Shown here: positions 38,969 through 47,823 of the stretch, one piece after another | How the letters are laid out: each line of letters begins with the position of its first letter | Position numbering within the stretch: position 1 is the first letter of the stretch | Origin: Shewanella polaris | Lineage (GTDB): Bacteria; Pseudomonadota; Gammaproteobacteria; Enterobacterales; Shewanellaceae | Length of the DNA: 64,000 bases | NCBI RefSeq assembly: GCF_006385555.1 | Contig: NZ_CP041036.1 | Location: 806,001 to 870,000 of the forward strand | Direction of reading: 5' to 3' | Notes under the pieces: model-generated | Database searches by the model: none | Seen by the model: only the letters and a program-made list of their open reading frames with translations | What the model was told of the DNA's origin: nothing | Program-made: the position numbers and the translations under genes

Positions 38969-39641
38969 AAGGTACTCCTAGTTAATTACGTAGATACATC
39001 TAACTACATTTAACTAGTTACAAAACGGATGCCAACTTTATAAAAGTAACAGAGAGCTATTTATCTGAGTTTGATATTTATAATTTAATATCAATTAGTT
39101 ACGTTTACTTTTTTGTGAGTAACGGTGGGAGAAGAGTATATATATCCAATGACACTGCTTGTTTTTTACCCGCTTAATGAGGTCTTGATAACGTAAAACG
39201 GTATTTATTTCTGATTAAATTGTAATATTTTCATATTGAATAACATAATTTTATCAATAAGTTGCGTATTGCTTTGTTGTTGATAAGTGGGATCCCTCAG
39301 ACTCTGACCCCATTTATTGCTTGTTGCTTTTATGGCCTGCGGCCACTAACGTCGTGGCGCGTCGCCCACACCAGACCAAGAGGAAACCAACGGCTGTTCC
39401 CTCTTTATTCTTTACAAAAGAATTGGCCCTGCGCCCCGTAATATTTTTATTAATTACTTAAATATCAGATGTGAAAAGATCATCATGGGAATTTATCCAA
39501 TATTATTAATATCAACAGTGACTTTTTGAGATCTTGCTTTTAGAAAGATTAATTTTAATTATTTATGATTATAGCGTGTTGGTTAATTTGTTTTCTGTAG
39601 CTGACTTAGTCAGCCATTTAACATAAAAATAAGGTAATAGT
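38969..39641. other. Intergenic region with an IS-end remnant
   Basis: About 670 bp without a gene. The rightward half holds an IS 3'-end remnant (39287-39318) and GC-richer filler (39330-39440). The AT-rich end, 39480-39640, should contain the promoter of the cold-shock-domain gene. Confidence 0.5.
39287..39318 (+). repeat. Solo IS end, inverted copy of the end at 42923-42955
   Basis: GGATCCCTCAGACTCTGACC with flanks is the exact reverse complement of the IS 3' end at 42926-42952 apart from small differences. The two copies are in opposite orientation and bracket the 39.3-42.9 kb block. Confidence 0.75.
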
Positions 39642-40307
39642 GTGAAAGGTATCGTTGTTGCTTATATCTCAAGCAAAAAATATGGTTTTATTAATGGTGA
39701 AGATGGTGAAAGTTACTTTTTACATTTCTCAAGTTTGCTGGATAAATCATCAGAATATAAGTTGATAAAAGGTGCTGTTGTCGAATTTGATCCGATACCC
39801 ACTCCCAAAGGGCTTGCTGCAAAAGATGTTTGTATTCAAGAAACTTATGTTAAGAAAAAAATGGTTGAGTTTTTCATAACCAAACAGAAAATACCAAAAG
39901 GTCTCAATGTTGAAGCGTCACATCCAATCAGTACTCATTTTTTTAAAGACCCTAGTGAAGGCCGTGAATACATAAAGCAACTTGCCATTGAAGCAGGGGC
40001 TAATGCCATATTGGGTATTGAGTTTGAGAAGAATACTTTCTCAGAGGGTAACTATAAGTATACAGTTCATGCATTTAAAGGTGATTTTGCATTTGTATCG
40101 GAGAATGTACCTTGTAGTAAAAAAAGGGATGAACTTGAATCAGCTCTCGAGCTTGATTCTTTATTAGCGAATTTTAATAGCCAGTTTAAAGTGATTGAAG
40201 CGCGTGAACACCAACTCAGGGAAAAACAGCTTAAGACTAGCCATACAGGTTGTTTTATAGCACTTATTATTTTATTTGTTATCATCATGTTTATATTTAG
40301 CCGTTAA
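39642..40307 (+). CDS. Cold-shock-domain protein with YbjQ-like middle domain and C-terminal membrane anchor
   Basis: 221 residues. Residues 1-65 ([32 protein letters not shown]...[20 protein letters not shown]) are a cold-shock/OB fold: YGFI and YFLHFS correspond to RNP1 (KGFGFI) and RNP2 (VFVHFS). Residues 70-150 ([18 protein letters not shown]...[16 protein letters not shown]...) recall the YbjQ/heavy-metal-binding-like family. A helical linker and a terminal membrane helix ([17 protein letters not shown]) follow. The start is GTG 39642 behind aaggtaat. Likely a membrane-tethered nucleic-acid-binding protein; role unknown. It is AT-rich and followed directly by an IS fragment. Confidence 0.75.
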
Positions 40308-40312
40308 CAGTG

Positions 40313-40513
40313 CTAAGTGTTTTGTGCGTTAACGGGGTGGCAAGTGAGGTGCATTTTGATAAAACGTGTTTTGCATTCATGGCATTGACTCGTGGTAATT
40401 TTTGTTTGGCGATAAATTTGATCACCAAATGCCATGAATGCTCCTCAGTTTTTAACCTATCTCGTTATTTTTATTCATTATTTTGTGGGGGTTGTCAGAC
40501 TCTGACCCCACTT
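40313..40513 (-). mobile_element. IS fragment: 5' end with internal hairpin, copy A
   Basis: About 200 bp nearly identical to 43350-43554. It ends in the terminal repeat TCAGACTCTGACCCCACTT (40495-40513). Inside, GCATTCATGGCATT (40373) is exactly inverted as AATGCCATGAATGC (40428), forming a hairpin that would lie upstream of the lost transposase start. No transposase codons remain. Confidence 0.75.
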
Positions 40514-41326: not shown

Positions 41327-42727
41327 ATGAAAGATATTTTTAAGTTTAAATTAATGGTAGTTCTTATGATTATATTGACAGCTTCAGGATGCTCTAAGCA
41401 CCCAGATACTGTTGCTATTGATACGAGTACTATGCCAAAGGGTGTTGAAATCTCATCAACAGCTTACATTTTCAATAGTGAGCTTGCATCGCTTGCTGAA
41501 GGTGTTAAAAAAATTGGAAAATTTAATAGCCGAAATAGTGATGTTATTAGTGGGAATGTTGTACCGTCATTTTCTGTGTCGAATGACAGCACTAATGAAT
41601 ATATGACAGCACTAAATGAAGTTAAAGCTATTCATTCAAGCATTCCATCAAAAGTACAAAAAGCACAGACTGAAAAGGTGGCTATCGAAGAGGGCAAAAT
41701 AGCAGAGATTCAAAGCAACATAGATCAGCAAAATGCTTTGCAAGCAAAGCTTGATAATTTTACCAAAGCTGAGCGTGGCTTATTAGCAGACATAAATAAA
41801 GAAATTGAAGATAAGCAACAAGTACTTAAACAGCAGCAAACAAAAATTATTCACGTGGTGAACAATTATATTGTGAGTAATAAATTGCCTATTAAGAAGC
41901 TTGATGAAAACGCTAATAAACCATTTAACTGGGACACCCTAAAGGCATACAAAGGTAAATGTTCAGAAAGAAAAGGTAGATATTACACCGAGGGAACATC
42001 TCATCTATCACAGTGTCTCTATTTCAACTTAAATTACAAGTTAAGTCGTGAACAGGGTGCTAATGAGTTAGGACAAGTAGTAAAAGCAAATATCAACTCT
42101 TATATAGAAGCAGATTGGTCTTTGAAAATGAGTGTGGGTGATAAGCACGGTCTTTATCGTAAAAAAATTGATGCTGAAAAGTCATTACAACAAGCCATTG
42201 TTATTGCAGAAAACCAAACTGACATTAGCAAGAATACTATAGAACGAACGTTACGCACTTTAAATAGGAATTTGGAACGAGCAAAAAAATCTCTTGTAAA
42301 TGTCAATAATTATCCAGTAACAGAAAATGATATTTTACGTCAAAACCAAGAGTACTCTAATGGTCTTAACCGAATGGATAAAGCACTCAGCGCTATTAAA
42401 AGAGAACTCCTTAAAGGTGCTATTGAAAATGGCATTCTCGTCGAAAAAGCTCCTGTGATAGGAACCGAGGGTGAGTTACCTTCGAACACTGGCGATTATT
42501 TGTTGATGGATATGTTGCTGAATGTGGGATACATAAAGAAAAGTTCATATGGTTTTACTAACCTTAATCAAGAGTGGCAAGATAAAGTTTACTTAGATAA
42601 AAATACCGCTGTATTTGGTTCTTCAAGTTCAGTAGATGATGACCTTAGTGCTTTAGAGTTAGCTGTTGTTGCAATGAATAAGTATCAGCGTAAACATGAA
42701 TCTGCAGATAACGGTAATAGTCTGTAA
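41327..42727 (+). CDS. Coiled-coil lipoprotein of unknown function
   Basis: 466 residues. Lipoprotein signal MKDIFKFKLMVVLMIILTASGCSK (Cys at about 22), with Ser-Lys after it. Residues 95-190 are a strong coiled coil (KAQTEKVAIEEGKIAEIQ...IEDKQQVLKQQQTKIIHVV), and a second one spans about 280-370. The C-terminal third (YLLMDMLLNVGYIKKSSYGFTNLNQEW) looks globular. The RBS is aagtaggaag before ATG 41327. AT-rich and with no recognised family; it follows the disrupted small lipoprotein gene by 102 bp on the same strand. Confidence 0.65.
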   Translation: MKDIFKFKLMVVLMIILTASGCSKHPDTVAIDTSTMPKGVEISSTAYIFNSELASLAEGVKKIGKFNSRNSDVISGNVVPSFSVSNDSTNEYMTALNEVKAIHSSIPSKVQKAQTEKVAIEEGKIAEIQSNIDQQNALQAKLDNFTKAERGLLADINKEIEDKQQVLKQQQTKIIHVVNNYIVSNKLPIKKLDENANKPFNWDTLKAYKGKCSERKGRYYTEGTSHLSQCLYFNLNYKLSREQGANELGQVVKANINSYIEADWSLKMSVGDKHGLYRKKIDAEKSLQQAIVIAENQTDISKNTIERTLRTLNRNLERAKKSLVNVNNYPVTENDILRQNQEYSNGLNRMDKALSAIKRELLKGAIENGILVEKAPVIGTEGELPSNTGDYLLMDMLLNVGYIKKSSYGFTNLNQEWQDKVYLDKNTAVFGSSSSVDDDLSALELAVVAMNKYQRKHESADNGNSL

Positions 42728-43594: not shown

Positions 43595-43620
43595 GGATTC
43601 GTCAGACTCTGATCCATTTA
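43595..43620 (+). repeat. Solo IS end abutting the membrane-protein gene
   Basis: GGATTCGTCAGACTCTGATC repeats the 43530-43550 end and stops one base before the stop codon of the leftward gene at 43621. The IS may therefore have trimmed that gene's 3' end. Confidence 0.6.
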
Positions 43621-44769
43621 TTATATTTTTTCAAACAAAATAGCAACAATGACATAAGTTGAAACTAATACAATAATAAAGTTTTTTAACTTTTGAATTT
43701 CACGTTTACAATCTTCAGCAGTATCTTCGACAGATTTTATTGCAGCATTGATTTTTTCTAAAATTGTCTGTTGTGCAAAGGTGTTTTTTATATCAGCAGT
43801 TCTTTTTTTATAAATACTTAATTTGGTAAGTGTATTGTCTGCTACTCGCGTAATGAATTTTGTTTTACTTTTAAGTGAGCTGAAGACAATTGTAAGTGCT
43901 AATACTGTACTAAATAATAATGCTACACTTATACCTTTATCTGCGCCTCTGAATGCTGAAGCAAGTATTACTGCACCAGGAACAGCCAATGCTTGTACGT
44001 AAAACCCTTGAATTTGCTCTTCAACCTTACTTATAAAATCACCTACATCATCTTCTAGATCTTTAATAAAATCCTCAAATGAGAAACTTCTTAAATAGGT
44101 TTCATAGTTCTTGTGAAATGTATTTAGTAGTGTTTCTCCTAGGCTTAATATTTCAATAAGTGAAATGTTTTTATTTCTAATCATCTTCAATAATGAACTT
44201 TTTAGAGTTGCTCTCTTTTCGCCTTGATGGGCATCCTTTTGCAAGCAAGATTTGAGTAGTAATTTTGGGCTGCTTATTGATTTTATTAATTTATATATAT
44301 CTTTCTCTGAGACGTTATCAATATTCATACTTAAAACTGTAGAGTTTTTATCATCATTTTTTTCTATGAAAATATAATTTCTACCCGAACTTAAATCATT
44401 TACAGGGTATTGGTGATCTGCAATCTCATCAAAAATCTGTATCCATTCCTTATAATGTTGAGCAAATTCACCTAATTCGATAATACCATCGCTATCTAAA
44501 ATAACTTTATTATAAGAGTTGCCGATTATTTTTAAATCATTATATTCGATATATTCAATTAATGTGTGAAAATCTTTAAAAATAAAATTTATATCTTCTA
44601 TATCAACAGTGCCAATGCCGTCAGTGAAGTCAGAACTTGGATAAATATCTATTGGAAATAGAATGTTAAACTTTTCTTTAGATAGATCTACAGATGTAAA
44701 GTAATTACCCTCAAAATTGAATGCTCCCTTAGCGTAGCATTCTATAATCTCACATTGTAATTTATCCAT
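43621..44769 (-). CDS. Membrane protein partner of NdpA-like protein, unknown family
   Basis: 382 residues. The first 240 residues are soluble and acidic (GNYFTSVDLSKEKFNILFPI, ...SLGETLLNTFHKNYETYLRS). Then come a helix (EDDVGDFISKVEEQIQGFY), two closely spaced membrane segments (AVPGAVILASAF, GISVALLFSTVLALTIVFS), an about 60-residue helical loop with two Cys-poor coiled stretches, and a last segment at the very C-terminus (FIIVLVSTYVIVAILFEKI). It overlaps the upstream NdpA-like gene by 8 bases (ATGGATAA), so the two are translationally coupled. Very AT-rich. An IS end abuts the stop, so the C-terminus may be altered. No family recognised. Confidence 0.7.
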   Translation of the reverse strand: MDKLQCEIIECYAKGAFNFEGNYFTSVDLSKEKFNILFPIDIYPSSDFTDGIGTVDIEDINFIFKDFHTLIEYIEYNDLKIIGNSYNKVILDSDGIIELGEFAQHYKEWIQIFDEIADHQYPVNDLSSGRNYIFIEKNDDKNSTVLSMNIDNVSEKDIYKLIKSISSPKLLLKSCLQKDAHQGEKRATLKSSLLKMIRNKNISLIEILSLGETLLNTFHKNYETYLRSFSFEDFIKDLEDDVGDFISKVEEQIQGFYVQALAVPGAVILASAFRGADKGISVALLFSTVLALTIVFSSLKSKTKFITRVADNTLTKLSIYKKRTADIKNTFAQQTILEKINAAIKSVEDTAEDCKREIQKLKNFIIVLVSTYVIVAILFEKI

Positions 44770-45862
44770 TCTGGATTTTTATTAGTTCAGCAATAATGTC
44801 AGCATCATTTATTTTTGTCTTAACTATAAGTTCATTATTCTGTGGATTGAAAACAATATTACCCACCTTACTTTTTTTGCTAAATAGTGATTTTTTAAGC
44901 TTTAGGTTACCTACGTCTGTATCCATCGTAATAAATTCTAGAGTTTCTCTTTCTTTCTTGCTGACACTAAATTCTTCATTAACTTTGTAATTATTATCTT
45001 GCACAAAATCTTCGAATGAATCTTTTTTTATTTTTAAATTTTTATCTATTCTTAATGTATTATAAATTACGCTACTCAAATCTTGTAGCTTAGTTGATAT
45101 CTTATTCCTTTCATTACGCTCTATATGTGACTTGACATTTTTTTCACATAACTCTCTTTGCTTTCGTGTTAATTTCTTAGTTAATAGGAAATTATTTAGT
45201 GCAGTTAAAACATTAGAAACACTTTCTTTATTCTTTATTACATCTTCAGCGTCAAAGAAATCTATAAAATAATCAGTAGTCCCGCCTACTCCATTAATAA
45301 ATGAAACGTCAATATCTTCCTTCTTGGATATAGAATTAGAAAATTCAGCTATATTAATTAGCGCTGCTTGCATCACATCATCAAAATCTATGATCTCAGT
45401 ACCTAGAGGTTCGCCATCATTTCCAAACATTAATGCAGATTTATCTTTTAATAACATGACCAATAAGTTTTCAATAAATATTGGCGTTGTGCTAGTGCTG
45501 TCCTCATGCTCTTTTTTGTATTTGAGGAATATGAGCACAAGTTTACTTTGGGCTCTTGAGCTCTTGAGAACTAGGCTATTGGTTTTCTGGATTGTCTCAA
45601 CTAGTTTTTTAAAATCTATATTATTTCGAGGTTTTAAATGTATCACTAATGAAGATGCAAGGGACTTTATTTTTGGTGGATATCCAATTTTTCCATGATT
45701 TTTTGAACGCCTTCTTACTTTAAGGTCGGCTTCTTTCGCAAACTCTTGGACATAATGATTACCCAAATTCCACTCATATACTTTATTAAAACTCCACTTT
45801 TTGGTCTGGTTATCCTGCTGATACGGGACGCTGATTCCGCCAAGCACTACGATTTTAGTCAT
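44762..45862 (-). CDS. NdpA/YejK-like nucleoid-associated protein
   Basis: 366 residues. The second half follows the NdpA/YejK (37-kDa nucleoid-associated) plan in order: DYFIDFFDAEDVIKNKESVS (YejK has a DFF-like stretch here), an NNFLLTKKLTRKQRELCEKN helix, LQDLSSVIYN, FEDFVQDNNYKVNEEF, and a final GNIVFNPQNNELIVKTKIND strand pair. The N-terminus (KIVVLGGISVPYQQDNQTKKWSFN...) differs from E. coli YejK. The family binds DNA. RBS aaggaa before ATG 45862. It is coupled to the membrane-protein gene behind it. The assignment is by eye from motif order and needs a profile search. Confidence 0.6.
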   Translation of the reverse strand: MTKIVVLGGISVPYQQDNQTKKWSFNKVYEWNLGNHYVQEFAKEADLKVRRRSKNHGKIGYPPKIKSLASSLVIHLKPRNNIDFKKLVETIQKTNSLVLKSSRAQSKLVLIFLKYKKEHEDSTSTTPIFIENLLVMLLKDKSALMFGNDGEPLGTEIIDFDDVMQAALINIAEFSNSISKKEDIDVSFINGVGGTTDYFIDFFDAEDVIKNKESVSNVLTALNNFLLTKKLTRKQRELCEKNVKSHIERNERNKISTKLQDLSSVIYNTLRIDKNLKIKKDSFEDFVQDNNYKVNEEFSVSKKERETLEFITMDTDVGNLKLKKSLFSKKSKVGNIVFNPQNNELIVKTKINDADIIAELIKIQNG

Positions 45863-46639: not shown

Positions 46640-47275
46640 TTAGTTTTTTAATCGATCGGAAGGTAGACAATCTCTGAACTCATTAAATGACTTCATCACT
46701 TCTTTAGGTTTGTTTGCTTGGCCTGTCAGCTGTGACCAAAAATATGCTGTAGTACCATTTAAACCATTCGAGTTTCTTAATACTTGTTCAATTAATTCAA
46801 TCGGATAACCTTTGCTGTGGCGATTGATGGCATGAATGCCTCCGTGAATATATGAACTTAATGGTTTCCATGAATATTGTTTAAATTCTAATAGTGGTAA
46901 TAGCGCATTTTCTGGAGCTTTCCCTTCCATTTTTTCAAGCATTTCAGTCAACATAGGTATCTTTGATGCCCTATTTGCGCTTTCATTCGTGAGATCTGCA
47001 AGATGCTTATTTATTTGAATCTCAGTAGCAGAAAAGTGAAACCAATGGGCTCTGACTAACGCTTCGAACTGTAATCTTAGTAGACCAATAGCTGAGGTGA
47101 AGTTACCTGTTGCTAGTAAGATTTTGATACTCTCTGAATGTTCAAAAGCCACGCTGCACATGATTCTACTAGCATGATTCTTAGGTGAAGCGACTGCTGG
47201 AGGAATTGCTAAATATTGACTCATTAGTTTTTCATATTCAGCAGATCTTATTAGCAATGAATCTAGATTCATCAT
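46640..47275 (-). CDS. DUF6988-like protein
   Basis: 211 residues, mostly helical. The stretch CSVAFEHSESIKILLATGNFTSAIGLLRLQFEALVRAHWF near residue 40-80 and SSYIHGGIHAINRHSKGYP near 138 are the recurring features of the DUF6988 family, as I recall it; the E-x-(L/V)-R-A-x-W and H-G-G-x-H sites look like an active or binding site. Function unknown. Its ATG overlaps the stop of the NERD-like gene by 4 bases (ATGA), which couples them. Confidence 0.65.
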   Translation of the reverse strand: MMNLDSLLIRSAEYEKLMSQYLAIPPAVASPKNHASRIMCSVAFEHSESIKILLATGNFTSAIGLLRLQFEALVRAHWFHFSATEIQINKHLADLTNESANRASKIPMLTEMLEKMEGKAPENALLPLLEFKQYSWKPLSSYIHGGIHAINRHSKGYPIELIEQVLRNSNGLNGTTAYFWSQLTGQANKPKEVMKSFNEFRDCLPSDRLKN

Positions 47276-47769
47276 TTTCCTACCTCACTCTTACTCAAAC
47301 ATCTCTGTGCCACTTGATACACAATCGCATCGACTTGTTGTTGGCTGAGTGTTTGAGTGCGGACGGCTGGTATGGTTTTGACCAGCTGTTTGTGATTTAA
47401 GATGGGGAACGGTGGCTTTGTTTGGCTTGTAACATACCAGCCGGGGAATACCAGTACGGGGCTGGAGAAAACCTGTTGGCCGGTAGCTTTGGTTAGCCAC
47501 TGGCTGACCTGCTCTTTATTAGGGATTGCTTGGCGAATTACTTGTTCTATTGGCTTGGTTTCAGTCCACGATGAAAAGCATAAGCGGCCGTCTTTAAAAT
47601 GCAGTGGCAGTAAACCAAAAGCGGGAATTCGTTGAAGTTGTTCGCGATCGACTGGTAGTTTAACTGTTCTGTCGCGATGTTTGAGTAAAACAAACATCAC
47701 CCCAATGGTGACGAACATGCTCGAAAGAAGAATGCCTACTGATAATAAACTGGAGGTGAAGCTTGTCAT
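47272..47769 (-). CDS. Truncated membrane NERD-like protein
   Basis: About 165 residues from the ATG at 47769, chosen because AAGGA sits 6 bases before it; a start at 47823 is possible. One N-terminal membrane helix (SVGILLSSMFVTIGVMFVLL) is followed by the C-terminal half of a NERD (nuclease-related) domain: DGRLCFSSWTETKPIEQVIR, QQVFSSPVLVFPGWYV and FPILNHKQLVKTI. The N-terminal half with the catalytic Glu/Asp-ExK residues is absent, so nuclease activity is unlikely. Either an internally deleted relic or a divergent short form. Overlaps the DUF6988-like gene. Confidence 0.65.
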   Translation of the reverse strand: MTSFTSSLLSVGILLSSMFVTIGVMFVLLKHRDRTVKLPVDREQLQRIPAFGLLPLHFKDGRLCFSSWTETKPIEQVIRQAIPNKEQVSQWLTKATGQQVFSSPVLVFPGWYVTSQTKPPFPILNHKQLVKTIPAVRTQTLSQQQVDAIVYQVAQRCLSKSEVGK

Positions 47770-47823
47770 TGGCGTCCTTGATCGTGGTGTGGCCTTAGTC
47801 ATAGGCCGCAATTCTAAATCCAT

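Follow-up and report, generated by a model that had tools for sequence, protein, structure and literature searches.

A system with a YejK nucleoid-associated domain is reported as validated in E. coli in the available text of the DefensePredictor paper (Science 2026, PMC13092281). Both halves of a DS1 pair are also named as antiphage in NCBIfam 20.0, as NF053868 (DS1_1_antiphage, "nucleoid-associated anti-phage protein") and NF053869 (DS1_2_antiphage, "anti-phage protein"). We infer that this DS1 is the DS-1 of the DefensePredictor paper, in the main text of which (PMC13092281) DS-1 does not occur as a whole-word term. Our literature search turned up no account of how a YejK-domain defence system works, and PMC9122126 makes no mention of nucleoid, NdpA or YejK. 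Kiwa, according to the accessible part of a review, joins a membrane subunit to a DNA-binding partner that stops replication and late transcription without cutting. The accessible account of SNIPE indicates that a DNA-cutting domain can be restricted to entering phage DNA by tethering it to the membrane, and the excerpts at hand on YejK and StaR describe them as nucleoid-associated proteins that change topoisomerase activity.

The pair presented here lies in a 64,000-nucleotide stretch of the Shewanella polaris genome (the window; the genome is a single contig of 4.65 Mb). It consists of two intact leftward (-) open reading frames, gene 1 at 44762-45862 (366 aa) and gene 2 at 43621-44769 (382 aa), which overlap by the 8 bases ATGGATAA at 44762-44769 (-), just as a preliminary description of this DNA had stated. 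An overlap of equal length is found at loci L044, L054, L055 and L056. The pair is also as AT-rich as described, with a GC content of 0.28-0.35 per kb vs 0.37-0.49 in most of the remaining window. Promoter-like sites occurred at chance level (12 found vs 11.9 in shuffles).

Protein 1 matched the DS1_1 model with 131 bits (E=5.1e-38, residues 15-347) and protein 2 matched the DS1_2 model with 80.5 bits (E=1.2e-22, residues 104-369). Both matches are significant, but both are under the curated NCBIfam cut-offs of 330 and 315 bits, respectively. The window pair shares with DS-1 both kinds of protein and their order, and it fits the wider definition of DS-1-like used here, a DS1_2-like membrane gene with an NdpA-like gene immediately before it on the same strand. 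On the other hand, it is only about 24% (gene 1) and 18% (gene 2) identical to an E. coli prophage pair that passes the cut-offs, and protein 1 lacks a CxxC...CxxC motif carried by 6/7 gene 1 proteins of the DS1 clade and by 0/8 others. The pair very probably belongs to the DS-1-like kind of defence system. The proposal that it represents a new system is not supported: each half has its match in a named antiphage family, and validation of a YejK-domain system in E. coli is reported; what is new is the clade. Because the curated cut-offs exclude related pairs such as this one, such pairs are probably undercounted.

Gene 1 is a YejK (NA37) paralogue additional to the core yejK of the host. NA37 is the 37-kD nucleoid-associated protein family, and its Pfam model PF04245 matched residues 119-348 of protein 1 (44819-45508, -) with E=1.4e-15 and 58 bits, above the gathering score of 24.6, which bears out the NdpA/YejK homology suggested earlier. 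The homology extends nearly throughout the protein. In an hhalign profile-profile comparison, protein 1 matched a YejK set (21 rows, one of which, L021, is a wrong antisense frame) at 98.6% probability over columns 35-361. Since the alignment has this span, the N-terminal part, previously taken for a domain of its own, is largely a diverged YejK N-domain. The sole solved relative by sequence was also YejK (9be2). Even so, protein 1 fits the DS1_1 model (131 bits) better than the YejK equivalog NF001557, where it stays far under the cut-off (57.7 vs 341 bits). The core yejK lies elsewhere in the host genome, separate from gene 1, and a profile search of the 19 kb around it (L059) found no gene 2 match. 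The DS1_1 model also matches core YejK (52/60 relatives, mostly through core yejK, plus E. coli among the controls), and gene 1 scores alone therefore tell little. Protein 1 is acidic in 13/15 members and basic only in the window and Shewanella donghaensis copies (pI 9.0-9.2). The gene 1 alignment (A1) comprises 29 homologues; P0048, P0054, P0057 and P0059 of 33 were omitted, mostly as short or near-identical.

Protein 2 is predicted to be a membrane protein with an acidic N-domain (residues 1-209, 44143-44769), a conserved stalk (residues 210-254, 44008-44142), a membrane hairpin (residues 255-273, 43951-44007, and 279-297, 43879-43935) and a C-terminal membrane segment (residues 364-382, 43624-43680), all on the (-) strand and the membrane segments by hydropathy. 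The soluble acidic domain and three membrane segments of the preliminary description are thus recovered. The N-domain has a net charge of -11 over its 209 residues, and it is acidic in 15/15 gene 2 relatives examined (net -5 to -20). Under the positive-inside rule, lysine-rich flanks of membrane segments are cytosolic; the stretch 298-358 is lysine-rich, and it and the N-domain should therefore be cytosolic. Across 30 sequences, the first 210 residues have a column identity of 0.39-0.57 and residues 211-300 one of 0.76-0.88, with 0.82-0.88 at residues 211-270 including most of the stalk. The underlying alignment (A2) holds 29 homologues; P0001, P0028 and P0030 of 32 were left out, mostly as short or near-identical. 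No Pfam family matched protein 2 at its cut-off, and profiles of close and wide gene 2 relatives gave no convincing solved structure (best E=0.13).

Such a conserved membrane-proximal part (residues 211-300) is what would be expected of a pore, and abortive infection is a possible, if rather doubtful, alternative: gene 1 would sense phage DNA, replication or topology, and gene 2 would open or depolarise the inner membrane and kill the cell. Topology sensing would be in keeping with the effect of YejK and StaR on topoisomerase activity, as given in the accessible excerpts, and it is for this reason that we consider it the main rival. However, the conserved part of gene 2 would equally fit an oligomeric anchor, and no similarity to known pore effectors was seen, as PADLOC models gave no match to protein 2 at E<=1 and none to 15 members at E<=0.1.

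The two genes stay together as a unit, in agreement with the earlier proposal of a conserved two-gene system. At 15/15 loci (12 genome or window loci and three plasmid records) from four lineages, the gene 2 relative has a gene 1 relative immediately upstream; L054 and L001 (Neptunicella marina) were counted as one locus. With profiles, gene 2 was matched in 12/14 loci (13 genome loci and the window), and in 12/12 of these a gene 1 match was directly upstream on the same strand. At L058 the genes are separated by a 176-base gap and the gene 1 frame is short (264 aa). The two loci without a gene 2 match were the core yejK locus L059 and L047 (G350, DS1_2 E=1.3e-4), a frame which we take by eye to be photolyase-like and which was dropped as a pair locus, since neither pair profile matches there. 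The gene 1 profile scored the core yejK (48 bits) above gene 1 of L041, L042, L046, L057 and L058 (30-48 bits), so in these it is adjacency, not score, that marks the pair. Protein searches pointed the same way: 17/32 gene 2 clusters had the length of their longest contig in common with a gene 1 cluster, the remainder not being judgeable. Among 15 pairs, the identity matrices of the two genes correlate with r=0.978 (0/10,000 permutations as high), a value inflated by close pairs, the rank correlation being 0.68. The outcomes that had been named as contrary to the proposal, namely no NdpA similarity, or homologues never adjacent and found in core loci, were looked for and did not occur.

In a maximum-likelihood tree of gene 1, built from the 15 pairs and 13 core YejK rows (12 of 20 usable set rows and the host's yejK), the core copies are separate (94/95, with long branches flagged). 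The window clade (window, L044 and L054) groups at 100/98 with the DS1 clade (L043, L045, L055, L056 and L075-L077), and L041/L042/L046 and L057/L058 form two further lineages. Placement of the window clade in the gene 2 tree is weakly supported (77/79). Both NCBIfam DS1 cut-offs were passed by five pairs (L043, L045, L075, L076 and L077) and failed by the window, G014, G027 and L057, in a scoring that left out L044, L046, L054, L055, L056 and L058. By its sequences the window pair falls in a clade of its own, mostly marine, apart from the DS-1 modelled by NCBIfam. Its S. donghaensis homologues are 93% (gene 1) and 87% (gene 2) identical.

The distribution is sporadic. Profile A2 found gene 2 in 4/152 genomes of the family and 9/394 of the order, which are lower bounds because A2 missed G014 and G027, both found by the DS1_2 model. 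That model matched 4/60 relatives, 0/14 control genomes and 2/369 genomes of a class sample, these two being the window's own and L047, later dropped. Six plasmid records match a DS1_2 protein; three were examined, from E. coli, Klebsiella and Paraglaciecola, and all three hold the pair. In E. coli and Klebsiella it is flanked by holin and antiterminator Q within lambdoid prophage regions. Of 5,426 complete E. coli genomes, 105 carry the E. coli pair, every match at >=99% identity, and the one examined has it at the same site. Both genes are adjacent in 27 of 28 viral contigs (seven with one gene split, short or partial), while the 28th starts inside gene 2; as near-copies they were counted as one lineage. 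Gene 1 had no match in plasmids, neither gene 2 nor the E. coli-type gene 2 had one in phages, and none of the 275 pattern matches in an A2 search of viral_contigs was a relative.

The presence of some pairs in prophages or beside an integrase would also suit a role outside defence, as an accessory nucleoid or mobile-element maintenance pair that, for example, anchors a resident element's DNA at the membrane. NA37 proteins are, in the sources available to us, nucleoid proteins, and protection has been demonstrated for the E. coli relative only. We nevertheless judge such a role improbable, given the antiphage naming of the relatives in NCBIfam, the E. coli validation in the available DefensePredictor text, the sporadic distribution within the family and the company that the relatives keep. 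In line with the defence role suggested in the preliminary description, defence-type genes adjoin several of them. The neighbours of L057 are AbiEi/AbiEii and methylase/specificity pieces. At L058:7290-9068, a FokI-type restriction enzyme (PF09254 E=8.1e-50) overlaps the end of the DS1_2-like gene 2, with a type II methylase beyond. L041 has an AlbA_2 Schlafen protein as neighbour and L045 an integrase; L043 and L056 have no obvious defence neighbour. PADLOC matches at E<=0.001 were obtained for 12/20 neighbours scanned, a figure that is not a measured enrichment because the 20 were picked by eye.

One chromosomal site recurs among these loci. The S. donghaensis pair sits between two genes which, from reading of their frames, we take to be gcvP and aceA. 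The window pair lies between them too, and here about 13 kb of further genes intervene towards gcvP; in G101 a pair from a different lineage sits between gcvP and a Fic gene. This site holds 3/6 of the Shewanella pair loci read; L042 is a short contig and cannot tell. Beside aceA in G020, a close relative, DNA comparison found nothing that matches the pair. What lies there next to aceA (L068:6718-9738) is two separate HamB-like helicase pieces, adjoined by a 236-aa protein without PADLOC match.

Between the window and S. donghaensis copies, dN/dS was 0.069 for gene 1, 0.199 for gene 2 and 0.051 for aceA, values that mark gene 1 and gene 2 as being under purifying selection. Within gene 2, residues 1-200 gave 0.348 and residues 201-382 gave 0.072 in this one sequence pair, the N-domain value being about five times that of the remaining gene. 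A constant membrane part joined to a changing soluble domain would fit an N-domain in contact with some variable factor of the phage. These values also bear on the suspicion that the pair is a trimmed relic left by insertion elements, a decay that we regard as very improbable. Short repeats and possible transposase remnants do lie on one side, and a repeat abuts the gene 2 stop codon. But neither frame is shortened relative to its 29 aligned homologues, purifying selection is evident, and DNA similarity to S. donghaensis begins at 43620, next to the gene 2 stop codon, so that the two copies end at corresponding bases; for the coding parts, trimming is thereby ruled out, and a promoter may have been lost. 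What had been described as an insertion-sequence end at the stop is one of five sites of a short repeat, GTCAGACTCTGA; it does not truncate gene 2, because in 27/29 of the aligned homologues the C-terminus is at most one residue away from that of the window protein (the other two are about 22 residues longer).

The best overall explanation, which we put forward as plausible though short of probable, is that the pair forms one operon encoding a DS-1-like anti-phage system of a distinct clade that acts by tethering and binding. The mechanism, taken by itself, is proposed tentatively. The gene 2 product would hold the gene 1 product at the inner membrane, where the fast-evolving, presumably cytosolic N-domain of gene 2 may perceive infection or contact a phage protein. 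The YejK-like subunit would then bind incoming phage DNA close to its entry site and could block its replication or expression.

Kiwa appears to be the best analogy, and SNIPE would be similar in logic. Like Kiwa, as the accessible part of the review presents it, the window pair has two genes, one for a membrane protein and the other for a putative DNA-binding protein. The resemblance does not extend to homology with KwaB: hhalign comparison with KwaB gave 1.7% probability for protein 1 and 0.4% for protein 2 (vs 98.6% for the control of protein 1 against YejK), PF16162 had no match to protein 1 at E<=1, and a KwaB homologue was rejected as an identity for protein 1. The KwaB profile held eight sequences from 11 loci, L082 and L083 being omitted and L087 being without a central frame. 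PADLOC, which includes KwaA models, gave no match to protein 2 at E<=1. With SNIPE, on the available account, the pair would share the principle that a DNA-acting domain tethered at the membrane discriminates phage DNA from self. SNIPE differs in being a single protein with a GIY-YIG nuclease, whereas no nuclease family of Pfam, GIY-YIG included, matched protein 1 or 2 at E<=1.

A wider reading, which we consider unlikely on present evidence, would be that YejK-plus-membrane pairs make up a superfamily with four lineages or more: DS-1 proper, the mostly marine clade of the window, a Shewanella clade and, at restriction loci, a short YejK-like clade. A chromosome-packaging protein would in this case have become a membrane-held trap for phage DNA, so that the Kiwa principle would have been invented a second time, independently; this trap would also have turned basic in the window species and S. 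donghaensis. The locus raises the question of whether a nucleoid-packaging protein can serve as an immune DNA trap when held at the membrane. With the window clade and the further lineages, alignments become deep enough to set the constant stalk and membrane segments against an N-domain that possibly meets the phage.

Other features of the window deserve a brief mention. A DUF6988 protein at 46640-47275 (-), two genes upstream of the pair, matched PF22491 (E=3.6e-62) and PADLOC PDC-S52 (E=1.3e-78). DUF6988 is newly implicated in defence in the available text of the DefensePredictor paper (PMC13092281), and this protein is a second defence candidate. The 183-aa frame at 47272-47823 (-) resembles the 304-aa protein of L068:9812-10726, apparently with an internal part missing. 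Allowing up to one mismatch, GTCAGACTCTGA occurs at 39296, 40494, 42933, 43535 and 43601, vs a chance expectation of 0.10 matches; its 14-base form has four copies in the genome, three of them in the window. A 111-base repeat pair lies at 40334 and 43373. The 221-aa protein encoded at 39642-40307 (+) has a cold-shock domain at its N-terminus (PF00313 E=4e-9) and an apparent membrane segment at its C-terminus, and it resembles the retron Se72 effector model weakly (34 bits vs a cut-off of 82). Finally, the 466-aa product of 41327-42727 (+), for which no family scored above cut-off, is lipoprotein-like and probably a coiled coil.
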